From the NCBI RefSeq assembly GCF_000724625.1, contig NZ_CP007139.1, forward strand, positions 3,596,001-3,660,000: a stretch of 64,000 bases of DNA, given 5' to 3'. Position 1 is the first letter of the stretch. Each line of letters begins with the position of its first letter. Positions 45,973 through 52,312 of this stretch are shown here, piece by piece. A model generated the notes under the pieces. It made no database searches, was not told the origin of the DNA, and saw nothing but the letters and a program-made list of their open reading frames with translations. The stretch is from Fimbriimonas ginsengisoli Gsoil 348. Lineage in GTDB: Bacteria; Armatimonadota; Fimbriimonadia; Fimbriimonadales; Fimbriimonadaceae. Both the position numbers and the translations under genes were made by a program.

Positions 45973-46776
45973 CTACTCCGCGGACGGGAAAAGGTCGGCG
46001 AGCCAGCGTGCCCACTCCGGTTCCGCCTCTGCCGCGGCGGTGTCTGCGCCTTCGCCAAAGAGATAAAACCGGATCGAAAGATAGACCTGGTCCCCCATCG
46101 GCATCGCGAAGAGATTGCAGATTCCCTGGGCAGGCTCACGGACAAGGACCAGGGAGCCAGGCGCGTCTTCCGGACCCATCGTTGCGACCTCGCCGGAGAA
46201 ACTCGGCGCATCCGATCCAGCGGAAACCTGTTGGCCCACGGTGGCGTTGGCCACGCCTAGTGGACCGGCAAACTTTTCCCATGTCGAAGAGATCGGACCG
46301 GGAGCCACTGCCGAGGCTTCGAAACTCGCGCTGGGTTGGCCGGGGAACCGGGTGAGCACCAGCCGGAGGATCTGGAAGAAGGTGCCCCAACCCTGCTCGA
46401 TCGCTTCGAACTGGCCATCCCACTCGTCGGTGCTGGCAAACCAACTGTGGACAACCCGAACCACGCAGGTTCCGCCGGACTTGGCTTCCACGGTCCACTC
46501 GTCCGCGACCGCCGGCGCGCCCGGCGACATCCCTTCGCTGTTGGCCACAAACCTCCGGGGAGGGTCCCATTCGGCCATGGTTGAAACGGTATCCATCCCG
46601 GGGCCGAAGCAAAGGGAGATCTCGCCTCCGACACGCTCTTCGATCTTCGCGGGAACGAACCAGGACGAGATTCCCGGCCCGGTGGCGATCGCTTGCCAGA
46701 CCTCTTCCGGCGAACCCGGAACTTCGACTTCGACTTGGACGGAACGGAGTCCATTCTCTCCTACTTTGACGCTCAT
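45973..46776 (-). CDS. SRPBCC (AHSA1-like) domain protein
   Basis: 267 residues. The N-terminal half is an activator-of-Hsp90-like START-fold domain: VQVEVEVPGSPEEVWQAIATGPGISSWFVPA, then AEWDPPRRFVANSE and the C-terminal helix GWGTFFQILRL. The second half (GQQVSAGSDAPSF on) is a further α/β region of unknown kind. It is cotranscribed with an ArsR-like regulator through an ATGA overlap, the common arrangement for this family; ligand unknown. Confidence 0.88.
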   Translation of the reverse strand: MSVKVGENGLRSVQVEVEVPGSPEEVWQAIATGPGISSWFVPAKIEERVGGEISLCFGPGMDTVSTMAEWDPPRRFVANSEGMSPGAPAVADEWTVEAKSGGTCVVRVVHSWFASTDEWDGQFEAIEQGWGTFFQILRLVLTRFPGQPSASFEASAVAPGPISSTWEKFAGPLGVANATVGQQVSAGSDAPSFSGEVATMGPEDAPGSLVLVREPAQGICNLFAMPMGDQVYLSIRFYLFGEGADTAAAEAEPEWARWLADLFPSAE

Positions 46777-47375
46777 GATTGCTCCTTAACGTTGGATTCG
46801 TATGGGGTGGGGTGGGCGGCGACGATCAGCCGGTGCGATCGCCCGCCCGGGGACGACGCATCGTGGTAGTGCGAGACCAATGCGGTAACCGCCCGGGTTA
46901 GGTCGGCGGTGAACGCTGCCCGCTCGGTGGCGGATCGGAACCGGATCTCGGTGTCGATCGATAGCGTGGGGAGGTGCTTATCCGCTTCGCGGGCTCGGCG
47001 GACGAGGTCGCCGACTTCTTGCACGATCCGCGCGGCCAGCGCGATAAGATAGCTAGCGGATAGCCGATCGGCGGTCCGCGCCGGGTCGGTAGCGGCGAGC
47101 CCCATCGCCTTGGGCGCAACGACGTACGACGCCGCGCTGGCGACGAAGAGCCGCTCCGTGATCCCTCCCCACTTCCGCTGCCCGGCCTGGCGCACCAGTT
47201 GGTGGGTTTCGAGGGCGTTGAGATGGTAATTCGCCTTCTGCCGGGTTAAGCCAACCTTCGCCGCCACGGAAGCGGCGGACTCCGGCTGACTCAACTCGGC
47301 CAGCAACCGACTCCGAATCGGCTCCAGCGCGACGGTCGCCGCCGAGGGGTCATGGATCACTTGCAGGTCGAGCAC
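46773..47375 (-). CDS. ArsR-like winged-helix regulator
   Basis: 200 residues. The N-terminal wHTH is clear: LEPIRSRLLAELSQPESAASVAAKVGLTRQKANYHLNALE. The C-terminal region (about 60-190) is alpha-helical and of unknown ligand. It starts at GTG 47375, exactly where transcription should begin (TAGAAT ends 6 bases earlier), so it is probably leaderless. The operator palindrome covering its own -35 box indicates autorepression. It overlaps the SRPBCC gene by 4 bp. Confidence 0.85.
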   Translation of the reverse strand: MLDLQVIHDPSAATVALEPIRSRLLAELSQPESAASVAAKVGLTRQKANYHLNALETHQLVRQAGQRKWGGITERLFVASAASYVVAPKAMGLAATDPARTADRLSASYLIALAARIVQEVGDLVRRAREADKHLPTLSIDTEIRFRSATERAAFTADLTRAVTALVSHYHDASSPGGRSHRLIVAAHPTPYESNVKEQS

Positions 47376-47381
47376 GGGGCT

Positions 47382-47413
47382 ATTCTAAGCCTTGACAACT
47401 TTTGTTGTCAAGG
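47382..47413 (-). promoter_or_regulatory. Promoter and operator of the ArsR-like/SRPBCC operon
   Basis: CCTTGACAAC (47390-47399), TTTT, GTTGTCAAGG (47404-47413): a perfect 10-bp inverted repeat. On the minus strand its outer half supplies TTGACA (47411 to 47406), an 18-bp spacer follows, then TAGAAT (47387 to 47382). Binding of a dimeric repressor would cover the -35 element. Confidence 0.8.
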
Positions 47414-47817
47414 GTTTTAAAGGGGAAACTGGGCGGCTTGGATTTGGGGCGCATCGCAGAGAGCCTGTTGGATGGTATTCGGTGGGTTCGAGGGCTCCTG
47501 CTATTCGTAGGCTGATGTCGCCGCTTTCAGGGCTCGGAGGGTTGTCGGCCCCTTTACCAGGGCTCCGCTTCGCTCCGACCTTTGCTTTGAGATGTCGCGC
47601 CTTCAGCGCTGGCTCCGGATCTGCCCTCGGACGCAGCTTCGATCTTAGGCGCCCCACGTAGAAGGCATGCTATGCAACGGCTTCCAGAGGACAGAGATGC
47701 AGCGCTCTTGGTCGACTTAAGATGGGGAGCCTTCGATTGTTTTGCCGCTCGTCCGAGCTTGAACACGACGACCCACCTTCGATTGGGGTTACACTTACTT
47801 GTACATCAACTCGGCGA
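47414..47817. other. Intergenic region with structured, repeat-like DNA
   Basis: No gene. Sequence is strand-skewed and rich in short inverted motifs (GGGCTCGGAG, CAGGGCTCCGC), and its minus-strand translation contains PALKARHLKA, the kind of artefact seen when an intergenic repeat is called as an ORF. Its other copies, if any, lie outside this window. Confidence 0.4.
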
Positions 47818-50800
47818 TCATTCGTTCGGTAGCCGGGGCAGCAAGAAAGCCAAGTCTGGCGAGGACTCCCAATCCTCCCGCGCCGCGGCAAGGTACGCCG
47901 CCCGCTCCTCCCCCGATCCGGCAATCCCTGCCAACCGCAAGTTGGCCTCCCCGGCAAAGTGCCGGTTTGGAAGCGACCGGAACAGCCCCAATGCATCGTC
48001 CCACGCCCGCCTCTTCGCCTCGACGTCTGGCTCGAAGTCCCCCAGCCAAAGGCATGCCTCCGCTTCCTCGAACCGGCCTTCGACCTGCGCCAGCTCCCCG
48101 CGAACCGCTCTCAACTCACGCGCAGCCTCCTCGGCATCGCCTCTCACACCTCGGATGCGCATTTGTAAGGCCCAGAAAATGGCTTCATTTCGTTTGTCCC
48201 CGATTTTTTGGAAGAATTCCCCGGCAATTTGCAGTCCTGCTTCTTCAATGTCGTCGCGACCAGCTTCGATTCTGGTCCTCGTAAACCCGTAGAGCGAACC
48301 CGCCTCCCCCTGCCGATCTCCAATCTCCTTATAGAGGATCTGAGCCGCTCGATATCCTTCCTCTGCCTCGGCGTAGGCATCGCGCACGCGTGCCACCTCG
48401 GCAAGGCCACCCAGCACGTTTGCTTCTCCCCGCCGATCTCCGATCTTCTTGAAAATGGTCAGTGCTGCCCGATAACCTTCCTTCGCCTCGGAGTAGGCAC
48501 CGCGCATGCGTGCCACATTGGCAAGCCCATCCAGCGCGTTTGCCTCTCCGGACGGGCTTCCGACCCCCTTATAGATGATCTGAGCTGCTCGATAACCTTC
48601 CTCCGCCTCGCAGTAGGCACCGCGCAGGCTTGTGACATCGGCAATGCGGACAAGCGCATTAGCCTCTCCGTGCCGGTTACCGACCTCCTTATAGATGGTC
48701 AGGGCTGCTCGGTATCCCTCCTCCGCCTCAGAGTAGGCGTCGCGCATCTTTGCCACGTCAGCAATGCCCCTAAGAGCATGTGCCTCTCCCTGCTGGTCTC
48801 CGGTTTCCTTGTTGATGGACAAAGCTAATCGGTATCCTTCCTCCGCCTCGGGGTAGGCATCCCGCATCTTTGCCATGTCGGCAAGGGCCTTGAGCGCATG
48901 TGCTTCTCCCTGCCGATCTCCAATCTCCTTATAGAGGATCTGAGCCGCTCGGTAACCCTCCTCCGCCTCGGCGTAAGCACCGCGCATGCTTGCTACGTCA
49001 GCGAGGCCCCTAAGCGCATTAGGTTCTCCGTGCCGGTTTCCGACCTCCTTGTAGATGGCCAGGGCCGCTCGGTATCCCTCCTCCGCCTCGGCATACGCAT
49101 TGCGGATACTTGCCACTTCGGCAAGGCCGATCCGCGCATTTGCCTGGGCTGATTTGTCGGGACGGGCCATTGCAGTTATCAGGCCCCGTTCGAAAACAGT
49201 GCGCGCATCGTCGTTGCGGGAGGTCACTCGCAAGAATTCACCGAGGTGGTAGAAACAAGCGAGCACCAGACCTGGCGGAACTGTTCCTTCGACGATGGCG
49301 CGCGCGGCAGGCTGGCTCGCTCTACGCAGGACGTTCCATCCGGGACTACCCGGCATTTCGTTGCCGCGCTCGCGCACGAGTCCTACGTAATAGCCGCAGT
49401 ACGCTCGGCGCATCGCCTCAAAGGAAATCTCGGCCCGTTTGGCGAGCACGAGCCGCACAATTGTCGGCAATTCATACTCGCTGGCGCCGTGCACTTCCGT
49501 GCGCCGTAACAACGACCACCGGGTCCACTCGGTCAACTGACTTCGGCTGACCTTCAAGTGAAGCTCGGCGTCGTCCGCGACGAACGGGTACTCGAACGGC
49601 GCGAGCTTGAGGAACGCCTCCCGATCCTTCTTTTTCAGCCGATCGATGGACCAACTGACGCACGCTTCTATGCTCCGCTGGCGCGCCACGCCGACCGAAT
49701 CTTCGCCGGACGTCTGGAGCCAGGATAGCGCCGCCTTCTCCACGCCATCCGCAATCTCCTTCAGCGTGGCGTCGTTCGCATGGGCGCCCAGCAGCTCCAG
49801 CGCCAGAGGCAGACCCTCGGTCGCCCGAAGCACCCGCAGAAGCGCCTTTAGGTCAGAAAACTCGGTAACGCCACGCTGGGCTGAGCGATCTCTAAACAGC
49901 GTGAACGCCTCGCTACCCTCGATATTATCTTCACTCGTCGGCACTCCCAGCGACCGCTGCTTCACCTCGGCCGTGACGTTCAGCGGGGAAGCCGCATGCT
50001 GGCTGGTTGCCAGCGCCCGCACATTCCGAGCCTGTTGCAGCAGATTCCCCAGAAACGCGTTCGTCTGCGTATTCGCGACGCTCTCGAAGTTGTCTAGGAA
50101 GAGCAGAAGGGTCCCTTGCCGGGCAAGGTAGCCGGCGAGGCTGCCAGATGGATCTTTCCTGACCACCTCCGGCGCCCGCACCGCTTCCGCAAGCATAGAC
50201 GCGAACGAGTCCGCCGTCACGTCCTCGGGCACGTTGGTGGTCAGTACATCGAACCGCGCGACGTGGACCCCGCCCGCGAAGCGCCCCTGGATCCGTTTGA
50301 TCGCCTCCACCGCGGTCGATGTCTTCCCAATCCCCCCGGGCCCGTGGAGTAGCAGCATCGGCGGCTCCCCCCGCTCTGCCCACTCAACAACCCGGGCGAT
50401 CATGTCCTCGTATCCGACGAACTTGCCCCGAGCTCCCAAGCTCAATAGAACTTCCATCCCGGGCAAAGCTGCGCCCTCCTGCGGCGTTTCCAAGGTCACC
50501 TGCACGGCCGGAGCCATCGGCGCCGACCCATGATCCAGAAAATGGCGAATCCGCTCCTCTTTCCCCACCGGCAGACCTACAGAAGCCGAAGCTATGATCG
50601 CGTCCGCGTACTGGTCCAATGCCTCCTCCACGGCCGCGTTCTGCGCCTGATCCCGGATGAGTTTCAAAAGCGTCGGCGCCTGCCGCTCCTTTGCGGACGC
50701 GCTCAAGGTCCGGTGAGCGTTCTGAAGCGCCCCTTCAAGGAGATCCACGTCTTCGAATTCACCCCAAACCACCGGCACAAGCCCGGTGTAGCCGCCCTCG

Positions 50801-51165
50801 ACTGGCTCGGAGCCAATCCGGTCTAGAAACGCAAGTAGCTCCTTAGCCGACTCACTCCCTACCCGGAAGAAGCTGGGAGAAAGCACCGCCACCAGACACC
50901 CGCACCTAGCCAGCTTCTCGCTGTGCCGAACCAAATAATCCTGCCCCACTCGGTTGTCCCGCCAGTCTGCGAACAGAACATCCCCATCCTCCTCGATCCG
51001 AGCCATCCGCGGCCCTAACCGAGCCCGAACCCGCGCCACTAACCGGCGAGTGAATTCCGCGAGATACCGCCCATCCCAAGCATCCTCTCCGGCATGACAA
51101 AGGAATCCGATTGGCTTTGGCAGATCGATCGGTCCGGGGTGGGGCTCCACTTTCGAGTATTTCAC
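47818..51165 (-). CDS. TIR-like / NB-ARC (STAND) / TPR immune-receptor-like protein
   Basis: About 1115 residues. Numbered from the upstream TTG 51228: residues 38-135 look like a TIR domain (PIGFLCHAGED, GCLVAVLSPSFF, then SAKEL with Glu 130 at the site of the NADase catalytic Glu). Residues 265-560 are an NB-ARC-type STAND ATPase with Walker A GPGGIGKT (296-303), Walker B LLLFLDN (374-380), TSQ (408-410) and GLPLAL (472-477). Residues about 697-976 are seven near-identical 40-residue TPR units. This is the plant R-protein architecture, known in bacteria as antiphage cell-death proteins. GTG 51165 (or 51150) is preferred because the promoter lies inside the longer frame. Confidence 0.8.
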   Translation of the reverse strand: MKYSKVEPHPGPIDLPKPIGFLCHAGEDAWDGRYLAEFTRRLVARVRARLGPRMARIEEDGDVLFADWRDNRVGQDYLVRHSEKLARCGCLVAVLSPSFFRVGSESAKELLAFLDRIGSEPVEGGYTGLVPVVWGEFEDVDLLEGALQNAHRTLSASAKERQAPTLLKLIRDQAQNAAVEEALDQYADAIIASASVGLPVGKEERIRHFLDHGSAPMAPAVQVTLETPQEGAALPGMEVLLSLGARGKFVGYEDMIARVVEWAERGEPPMLLLHGPGGIGKTSTAVEAIKRIQGRFAGGVHVARFDVLTTNVPEDVTADSFASMLAEAVRAPEVVRKDPSGSLAGYLARQGTLLLFLDNFESVANTQTNAFLGNLLQQARNVRALATSQHAASPLNVTAEVKQRSLGVPTSEDNIEGSEAFTLFRDRSAQRGVTEFSDLKALLRVLRATEGLPLALELLGAHANDATLKEIADGVEKAALSWLQTSGEDSVGVARQRSIEACVSWSIDRLKKKDREAFLKLAPFEYPFVADDAELHLKVSRSQLTEWTRWSLLRRTEVHGASEYELPTIVRLVLAKRAEISFEAMRRAYCGYYVGLVRERGNEMPGSPGWNVLRRASQPAARAIVEGTVPPGLVLACFYHLGEFLRVTSRNDDARTVFERGLITAMARPDKSAQANARIGLAEVASIRNAYAEAEEGYRAALAIYKEVGNRHGEPNALRGLADVASMRGAYAEAEEGYRAAQILYKEIGDRQGEAHALKALADMAKMRDAYPEAEEGYRLALSINKETGDQQGEAHALRGIADVAKMRDAYSEAEEGYRAALTIYKEVGNRHGEANALVRIADVTSLRGAYCEAEEGYRAAQIIYKGVGSPSGEANALDGLANVARMRGAYSEAKEGYRAALTIFKKIGDRRGEANVLGGLAEVARVRDAYAEAEEGYRAAQILYKEIGDRQGEAGSLYGFTRTRIEAGRDDIEEAGLQIAGEFFQKIGDKRNEAIFWALQMRIRGVRGDAEEAARELRAVRGELAQVEGRFEEAEACLWLGDFEPDVEAKRRAWDDALGLFRSLPNRHFAGEANLRLAGIAGSGEERAAYLAAAREDWESSPDLAFLLPRLPNE
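48298..49137 (-). repeat. Seven 120-bp tandem repeats (TPR units)
   Basis: Seven in-frame 40-codon units with the core EAEEGYRAA, and an eighth, degenerate one beyond 48298. Units 1, 4, 6 and units 2, 7 are particularly close, differing at a handful of residues. The DNA is similar enough to recombine and change copy number. Confidence 0.9.
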
Positions 51166-51199
51166 GGAGGTAATGACCAGTATCGGCAGGGTCGGAAGG

Positions 51200-51228
51200 A
51201 ATATAACCTTACTCGGAGCCAACGTCAA
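51200..51228 (-). promoter_or_regulatory. Promoter of the TIR-STAND-TPR gene
   Basis: On the minus strand TTGACG (51228 to 51223), 17-bp spacer, TATATT (51205 to 51200). The TTG that would be the earliest start codon is the -35 box itself, so translation begins further in, at GTG 51165 or 51150. Confidence 0.7.
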
Positions 51229-51453: not shown

Positions 51454-51529
51454 TGGCTGCCGCAATAGGACTCGAACCTATGACCCGCTGATTAACAGTC
51501 AGCTGCTCTACCAACTGAGCTATGCGGCA
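51454..51529 (-). tRNA. tRNA-Asn (GTT)
   Basis: The minus strand starts TGCCGCATAGCTCAGTTGGT. It has an acceptor stem TGCCGCA/TGCGGCA, D arm, anticodon loop CTGTTAA with GTT (51494-51496), TψC arm GGTTCGAGTCC, discriminator G and an encoded CCA at 51454-51456. Total 76 nt. Confidence 0.96.
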
Positions 51530-51565
51530 GTAGGTTGAGAAATATACCTCGGAACTGGGGGGCGG

Positions 51566-52312
51566 TCAAGGGGCGGGATGGGAAGAAGAGTGGGCGACGA
51601 CGACGGGTGGCGGTGGTGGGGTGGAGCCGATGATGTTGACGGCCCGGCCGACGAGGAGGACGATGATGCTGAGGGAGATGCTTGCCTGCACCATCATCAG
51701 CCCCTTGGCCCATCGGCTCAATACCGGGGCGTCGGTCGGGGAGAGGGCCGCGCTCGAGTTGTATGCCAAGAAAAGGTAGTCGATGAAGCCGGGTTTCCAG
51801 CCCTCCTGTCCGGTCTTTTCGAGCTGTTCGGGGCTCATCGACATTTGGGGGAATAGGAATGCGCCCTCGTGATGCTGAAGACGAGCCGCCCTCGCGTGCG
51901 GACCGCCGGCATCGAGCCGCCAATACCAGCAGGCGAACACCAACACGTTCGTGGCCCAGAGGCCGGCCGCCGACTTTAGTAGCTCGCTGGGGGTCTCTTT
52001 TTGCCCCTTGAGGCCCAGGACCAGTAGTGCCAGCGAGGCCAGCATGAAGCAGGTGAGGATGGCGAGCAAGACGTACGCCAAAATCGTATTGAGCCGGTGC
52101 CGATGCTGGCGATGGCTTAGCATGAGCGGCGCCGCCGTCAAGAGCACGATCACCATTGGGATCCACCGCATCCGAGTGTCGGTAAACGGCAGCAGCTTCG
52201 TAGGAAGCGACGCATAGAGTCCGCCGATCGCCAGCAATGCGACCAACACCGGCCACCGCTGCTCCGCGGAGCCCAGGCGGCAAGCAATCCTTCTGGCCCA
52301 ACGATGGGACAT
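51566..52312 (-). CDS. DUF1345-like membrane protein
   Basis: 248 residues with about six hydrophobic segments. The C-terminal motif WKPGFIDYLFLAYNSSAALSPTDAPVLSRWAKGLMMVQ is the signature of the DUF1345 family. The loop before it carries a charged region (GGPHARAARLQHHEGAF) and the end is Pro/His-rich (STPPPPPVVVAHSSSHPAP). No known function; no operon partner. It lies 36 bp from tRNA-Asn. Confidence 0.82.
   Translation of the reverse strand: MSHRWARRIACRLGSAEQRWPVLVALLAIGGLYASLPTKLLPFTDTRMRWIPMVIVLLTAAPLMLSHRQHRHRLNTILAYVLLAILTCFMLASLALLVLGLKGQKETPSELLKSAAGLWATNVLVFACWYWRLDAGGPHARAARLQHHEGAFLFPQMSMSPEQLEKTGQEGWKPGFIDYLFLAYNSSAALSPTDAPVLSRWAKGLMMVQASISLSIIVLLVGRAVNIIGSTPPPPPVVVAHSSSHPAP

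Follow-up and report, generated by a model that had tools for sequence, protein, structure and literature searches.

Single genes that encode a TIR domain, a STAND ATPase and TPRs have been described as antiphage systems in bacteria: one such 'TIR-NLR' protein, from P4-like satellites, was validated against phages in E. coli, and its authors proposed a role for the TPRs in sensing infection and for the TIR in degrading NAD+ (Rousset et al. 2022, PMC9122126). In FxSxx-type systems, an AP-ATPase with an N-terminal TIR and C-terminal TPRs has also been reported (Kaur et al. 2020, PMC7159879). Here we analyze a gene of Fimbriimonas ginsengisoli Gsoil 348, located in a window of 64,000 nucleotides (positions 3,596,001 to 3,660,000 of the chromosome), that combines TIR, STAND and TPR in one gene, as in the TIR-NLR definition (PMC9122126). 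The TIR-STAND-TPR architecture is already described and the type of system is known; the gene contributes one more NLR-like TIR receptor encoded in a single gene, from Fimbriimonas of the little-studied phylum Armatimonadota.

The original prediction for this gene, made from the sequence alone, had called its architecture plant-type. The TIR/NB-ARC/TPR order that it described holds, but the architecture is a known bacterial one with a published antiphage example (PMC9122126). With plant TIR-NB-ARC-LRR receptors the protein shares the effector-switch-sensor order, which is a resemblance of layout only, and the plant sensor is an LRR rather than a TPR array. With the TIR-NLR of P4-like satellites (PMC9122126) it shares the single gene, N-terminal TIR, central STAND ATPase, C-terminal TPRs and accessory location, while differing in its FxsC-type TIR and in residing on an Armatimonadota chromosome beside tRNA-Asn instead of on an E. 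coli satellite element; here too the two are likened by layout. Since both plant immune receptors and an antiphage protein of bacteria share this layout, the protein probably serves in defence, as a receptor of the self-sacrifice type.

A single intact gene encodes TIR-like, NB-ARC and TPR domains

The features on which the analysis is based are as follows, with positions counted from the first letter of the window.

47818-51228 (-): TIR(FxsC-type)-NB-ARC-TPR protein, 1136 aa from TTG (open frame, Pfam and NCBIfam)
50569-51117 (-): predicted FxsC-type TIR-like effector domain, residues 38-220 (NF040588, profile-profile TIR match, weak PDB profile matches)
50839-50841 (-): codon of the candidate catalytic Glu130 in SAKEL (alignment with the invariant Glu of ten TIRs; PdTIR PDB profile alignment)
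49549-50421 (-): NB-ARC STAND ATPase, approximately residues 270-560 (PF00931, E = 2.9e-8; alignment with 32 phylum NB-ARCs)
50343-50320, 50109-50089 and 49815-49798 (-): Walker A, Walker B and GLPLAL, respectively
48304-49143 (-): seven 40-aa TPR units, likely sensor, residues 696-975 (in-register copies, 120-nt spacing)
51200-51228 (-): promoter-like TTGACG-17-TATATT, overlapping the annotated TTG start (consensus scan only)
51454-51529 (-): tRNA-Asn (GTT) (ARAGORN, Rfam; 3' side variable in the genus)
47455-47695 (no strand assigned): dispersed intergenic repeat, 3' of the gene (genome matches; alignment of 15 copies)

The gene is a single intact frame with no internal stops, and its product carries, from N- to C-terminus, the TIR-like domain, the NB-ARC and the TPR array, to which a degenerate eighth unit is appended. 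All motifs lie where they had originally been placed, with SAKEL at residues 127-131 (Glu = 130), GPGGIGKT at 296, LLLFLDN at 374 and GLPLAL at 472. Although an AGAGGG-like stretch is found upstream of the TTG, this codon is an uncertain start because it falls inside the promoter-like sequence, and GTG codons at 51165 or 51150 are possible alternatives; the choice of start codon does not affect the domains. The GC content of the whole gene is near that of the neighbouring genes.

The N-terminal domain resembles FxsC-type TIRs

Of the three profile searches that had been proposed for this protein, those with NB-ARC and TPR profiles succeeded, the latter with TPR_12 at E = 3.2e-21, while Pfam TIR_2 fell below its cut-off (E = 0.0082). 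FxsC_Nterm (NF040588, NCBIfam 'TIR-like protein FxsC') matched residues 52-215 with an E of 9e-13 but missed its curated cut-off (48.6 vs 130 bits), and the TIR-like domain is a relative of FxsC, not a member. To compare this domain with TIRs at the profile level, an FxsC-like profile was assembled from the domain of the 1136-aa protein, an FxsC-annotated domain of a Streptomyces plasmid and the second FxsC-type domain of the genome, and was aligned with a profile built from ten of the phylum's TIR domains. This revealed a match with a probability of 98.6-98.8%, versus at most 7.7% for shuffled-column controls (n = 100), and the sequence of residues 38-220 alone reached 88-90%. A five-TIR alignment was dropped as a scan profile, being too diverse. 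The top profile matches among solved structures were the bacterial TIRs 3h16, 4c7m, 4lzp and 4lqc, each of them weak (E 0.07-0.5), with a peroxiredoxin also among the matches (E 0.42). Single-sequence AlphaFold2 modelling of residues 36-270 gave an unusable model (pLDDT 44) with no PDB match at E <= 0.001, and this low-confidence model was counted neither for nor against a TIR fold. Taking the FxsC_Nterm match and the profile-profile comparison together, we conclude that the N-terminus is most probably a divergent TIR of the FxsC type, in line with the TIR-like domain originally predicted.

In the alignment, Glu130, which had been proposed as the catalytic residue, falls on the Glu that all ten TIR domains share, and the PdTIR PDB profile alignment stops at the same Lys-Glu as in SAKEL, so that its standing as a candidate catalytic residue is upheld. 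Where typical TIRs have Trp-Cys ahead of this Glu, the Fimbriimonas protein has SAK. Together with the divergence of the sequence (TIR_2 only 0.008), this replacement would suit a TIR that serves as a catalytically dead scaffold and clusters with a separate effector protein, a reading that we consider improbable, as Glu130 is kept and aligned and no partner gene adjoins. None of the papers searched was found to report on the biochemistry of FxsC-type TIRs; NADase activity, if real, would provide this type of domain with a testable function.

Related TIRs occur in likely conflict systems

Besides this domain, a single FxsC-type TIR was found in the genome. It lies at 427 kb, in an iSTAND-MoxR-vWA operon (~424-430 kb, minus strand), a placement newly observed here. 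In this operon, a TIR-SLOG cluster2 gene is followed by genes for TIR(FxsC)-iSTAND, a MoxR-like AAA ATPase and a CoxE-type vWA protein. The inactive-STAND match of the FxsC-type protein (PF19995, 7e-4) is below cut-off. These genes are likely an iSTAND ternary conflict system, as iSTAND-MoxR-vWA ternary conflict systems with the same layout have been described (Kaur et al. 2020, PMC7159879). The two FxsC-type TIRs of the genome are related, with 27-28% identity, but that of the operon is fused to an inactive STAND within a multi-gene system, whereas the gene at 47818-51228 is solo and encodes an active-looking ATPase and TPRs. On Streptomyces plasmids, a MoxR-like AAA gene is directly followed by one for a long repeat protein that ends in the FxsC domain, and these loci are a plasmid-borne VMAP-like conflict system.

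As FxSxx-type VMAP ternary systems include a component with the same TIR, AP-ATPase and TPR order (PMC7159879), and as the TIR subtype is itself named after the FxsC of these systems, the Fimbriimonas gene might be thought to belong to an FxSxx-COOH peptide/VMAP conflict system, as its remnant or as a member that stands alone. Unlike the genes of such systems, it has no adjoining MoxR, vWA, peptidase, radical SAM or peptide genes, and no FxsB radical SAM protein over cut-off was found in the genome, where only generic radical SAM matches were obtained (22 vs 370 bits). Membership in an FxSxx-COOH system was ruled out on the absence of FxsB, and the idea of a remnant, mostly refuted already because the partners are absent, is very improbable.

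The ATPase is intact and resembles those of regulators and cyclases

The PF00931 match exceeds its gathering score (33.7 vs 23.5 bits), and an alignment of 33 NB-ARCs, including the Fimbriimonas protein, revealed that Walker A, Walker B and GLPLAL are all kept, which bears out the intact NB-ARC STAND ATPase of the original prediction. A sensor-1 TSQ in place of TSR and a missing MHD motif were considered as defects and discarded, both being common to other NB-ARCs of the phylum. The best NB-ARC matches (up to 2e-24) were STANDs whose heads are BTAD or nucleotide-cyclase domains, whereas the ATPases of the two further TIR-NB-ARC proteins detected in the phylum matched at only 9e-5 and 0.17, in a comparison set that is biased toward BTAD and cyclase proteins because these were chosen as best matches to the 1136-aa protein. 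Matches on plasmids were mostly annotated as BTAD or LuxR regulators. Thus, judged by sequence, the ATPase appears to resemble those of BTAD/cyclase STANDs more than those of the phylum's TIR-NB-ARCs, which is a new aspect of this protein. In an NB-ARC tree the Fimbriimonas protein sits on a long branch with no firm placement, and grouping with the phylum TIR-NB-ARCs was not rejected (AU p 0.27).

These matches bear on the main rival to a role in defence, namely that the protein is a signalling STAND in which an NB-ARC-TPR core, of the type that bears BTAD or cyclase heads in this phylum, is joined to a TIR head with a part in regulation or development, or in the production of an ADP-ribose-type messenger. 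The closest NB-ARC sequences are those of AfsR/BTAD and cyclase-type NB-ARC-TPR proteins, which also have a like TPR layout, and the plasmid matches, as well as the lack of defence genes among the flanking genes scanned, point the same way. However, these proteins bear an N-terminal DNA-binding or cyclase domain and no TIR, while the Fimbriimonas protein has neither of those heads; TIR-headed STANDs have a published antiphage precedent (PMC9122126), the gene is missing from congeners, unlike a conserved regulator, and the tree permits the grouping with TIR-NB-ARCs. We therefore regard a signalling role as rather unlikely. The original prediction would have been contradicted by an ATPase that aligns with transcription regulators lacking a death effector; this was partly borne out, in that the ATPase aligns with regulator-type ones, but with a TIR, and not a DNA-binding domain, at the N-terminus. 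A tentative explanation for this mixture, which we rate below even chances, is a chimera made in this lineage, with the FxsC-type TIR of a conflict system grafted onto a BTAD/cyclase-type NB-ARC-TPR core and the TPR array expanded afterwards. If this were true, bacterial immune receptors could arise by a head swap on a housekeeping STAND.

The TPR array varies at ligand-facing positions

The seven conserved TPR units of the original prediction are matched by seven units of exactly 40 aa each, which share 53-82% identity in protein and 67-82% in DNA and have a lower GC3 than the NB-ARC part (0.62 vs 0.785). TPR positions 2, 5, 9, 12, 13, 33 and 34 are known to be the most variable and to form the concave ligand-binding face (Magliery and Regan, PMC1261162). 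Differences between the units gather at these seven positions (mean pairwise 0.69 vs 0.27, permutation p 0.0005), where pN is below pS (synonymous 0.64 vs non-synonymous 0.37 per site). The pattern of variation fits a ligand-binding sensor, without demonstrating positive selection; TPRs ordinarily vary on their concave face, and with pN below pS the variability alone is no sign of an arms race.

The gene is accessory and adjoins a variable tRNA-Asn site

No full-length relative was found in 100 related genomes, in which the best matches cover only the ATPase and TPRs, and FxsC-type TIRs were detected in 16/291 genomes of the phylum, over cut-off in none. Phage records held no relatives, and plasmids and viral contigs held none that cover the TIR. 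Pattern scans of viral and genome contigs likewise returned no relative, but the short peptide patterns used were poor ones and say little about absence outside the phylum; Pantoea plasmid matches annotated 'diguanylate phosphodiesterase' (E 0.02-1) were taken as chance. PADLOC defence models gave no full-length match, with only a generic TPR model matching (3.6e-29) and other matches weak. The gene is accessory.

As first described, the gene lies alone between an intergenic repeat and tRNA-Asn. The repeat is real, the stretch 47380-47820 having 39 matches in the genome including itself, the others at 70-86% identity. When the 3' side of tRNA-Asn was compared across 12 congeners, it differed in 12/12, and the TIR-NB-ARC-TPR gene was present in 0/12. 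One congener has a phage integrase (PF00589, 5e-29) ~0.7 kb from tRNA-Asn, another has an hsdM gene at the site, and a further comparison found the glpX-tRNA-Asn neighbour pair retained in one congener that lacks the gene. This diversity, with the integrase and hsdM, supports a variable site beside tRNA-Asn and suggests that it is an accessory-gene site in the genus, in agreement with the accessory location first read from the tRNA. No second att-like copy of the tRNA-Asn 3' end was found within the window, and an integrated element could thus not be delimited. Synteny of glnE and an amino-acid permease was of no help, as gene order is shuffled in the genus. In a congener, tRNA-Asn is followed at ~3 kb downstream, and in the same orientation, by another NB-ARC gene with a non-TIR N-terminus (SARP-like by eye), which may be coincidence. 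The flanking genes scanned, which include those for a glycosyltransferase, an epimerase, a UDP-sugar dehydrogenase, a permease, a sigma factor, AHSA1, an ArsR-type protein and glnE, gave no convincing match to defence genes.

A putative ligand-gated TIR NADase in abortive infection

The domain order, intact ATPase motifs, conserved Glu, repeat array varying at ligand-facing positions and accessory distribution form the observed base for a reading that we hold to be the probable one, though with some reserve: a ligand-gated TIR NADase that acts in abortive infection as a TIR-NLR-like receptor. At rest, the NB-ARC switch would hold ADP and keep the TIRs apart. On binding of a ligand, probably a protein of the phage or some other invasion cue, to the concave side of the TPR superhelix, ATP would replace ADP, and the protein would then presumably oligomerize. 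The clustered FxsC-type TIRs may cleave NAD+ via Glu130, so that the infected cell would be killed or arrested. In favour of defence are the TIR kinship and Glu alignment, the intact NB-ARC, the TPR variation at ligand positions, the accessory distribution, the variable tRNA-Asn site, the second FxsC-type TIR in a conflict-type operon, the FxsC domains encoded behind MoxR-like genes on Streptomyces plasmids and the antiphage TIR-STAND-TPR precedent; against it are the absence of defence genes among the flanking genes scanned, of relatives in phage records and of TIR-covering relatives in plasmids or viral contigs, the regulator/cyclase-type NB-ARC, an FxsC match below cut-off and the lack of a reliable structure model. 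Weighed together, a defence role for the TIR-NB-ARC-TPR protein is plausible.

Intergenic repeat and promoter-like sequences

The core of the dispersed repeat forms a palindromic TACCAGGG...CCCT(T/G)GGCT stem; the repeat (47455-47695) has no Rfam match and may represent an element of the REP or MITE type. A near-consensus promoter, TTGACA-18-TAGAAT (11/12; 47375-47411, minus strand), precedes the ArsR-type gene at 46773-47375; as this promoter ends 7 nt before the GTG, the mRNA of the gene may be leaderless. A further promoter-like sequence, TTGACC-17-TATATT, is located just upstream of tRNA-Asn at 51541-51569 on the minus strand.
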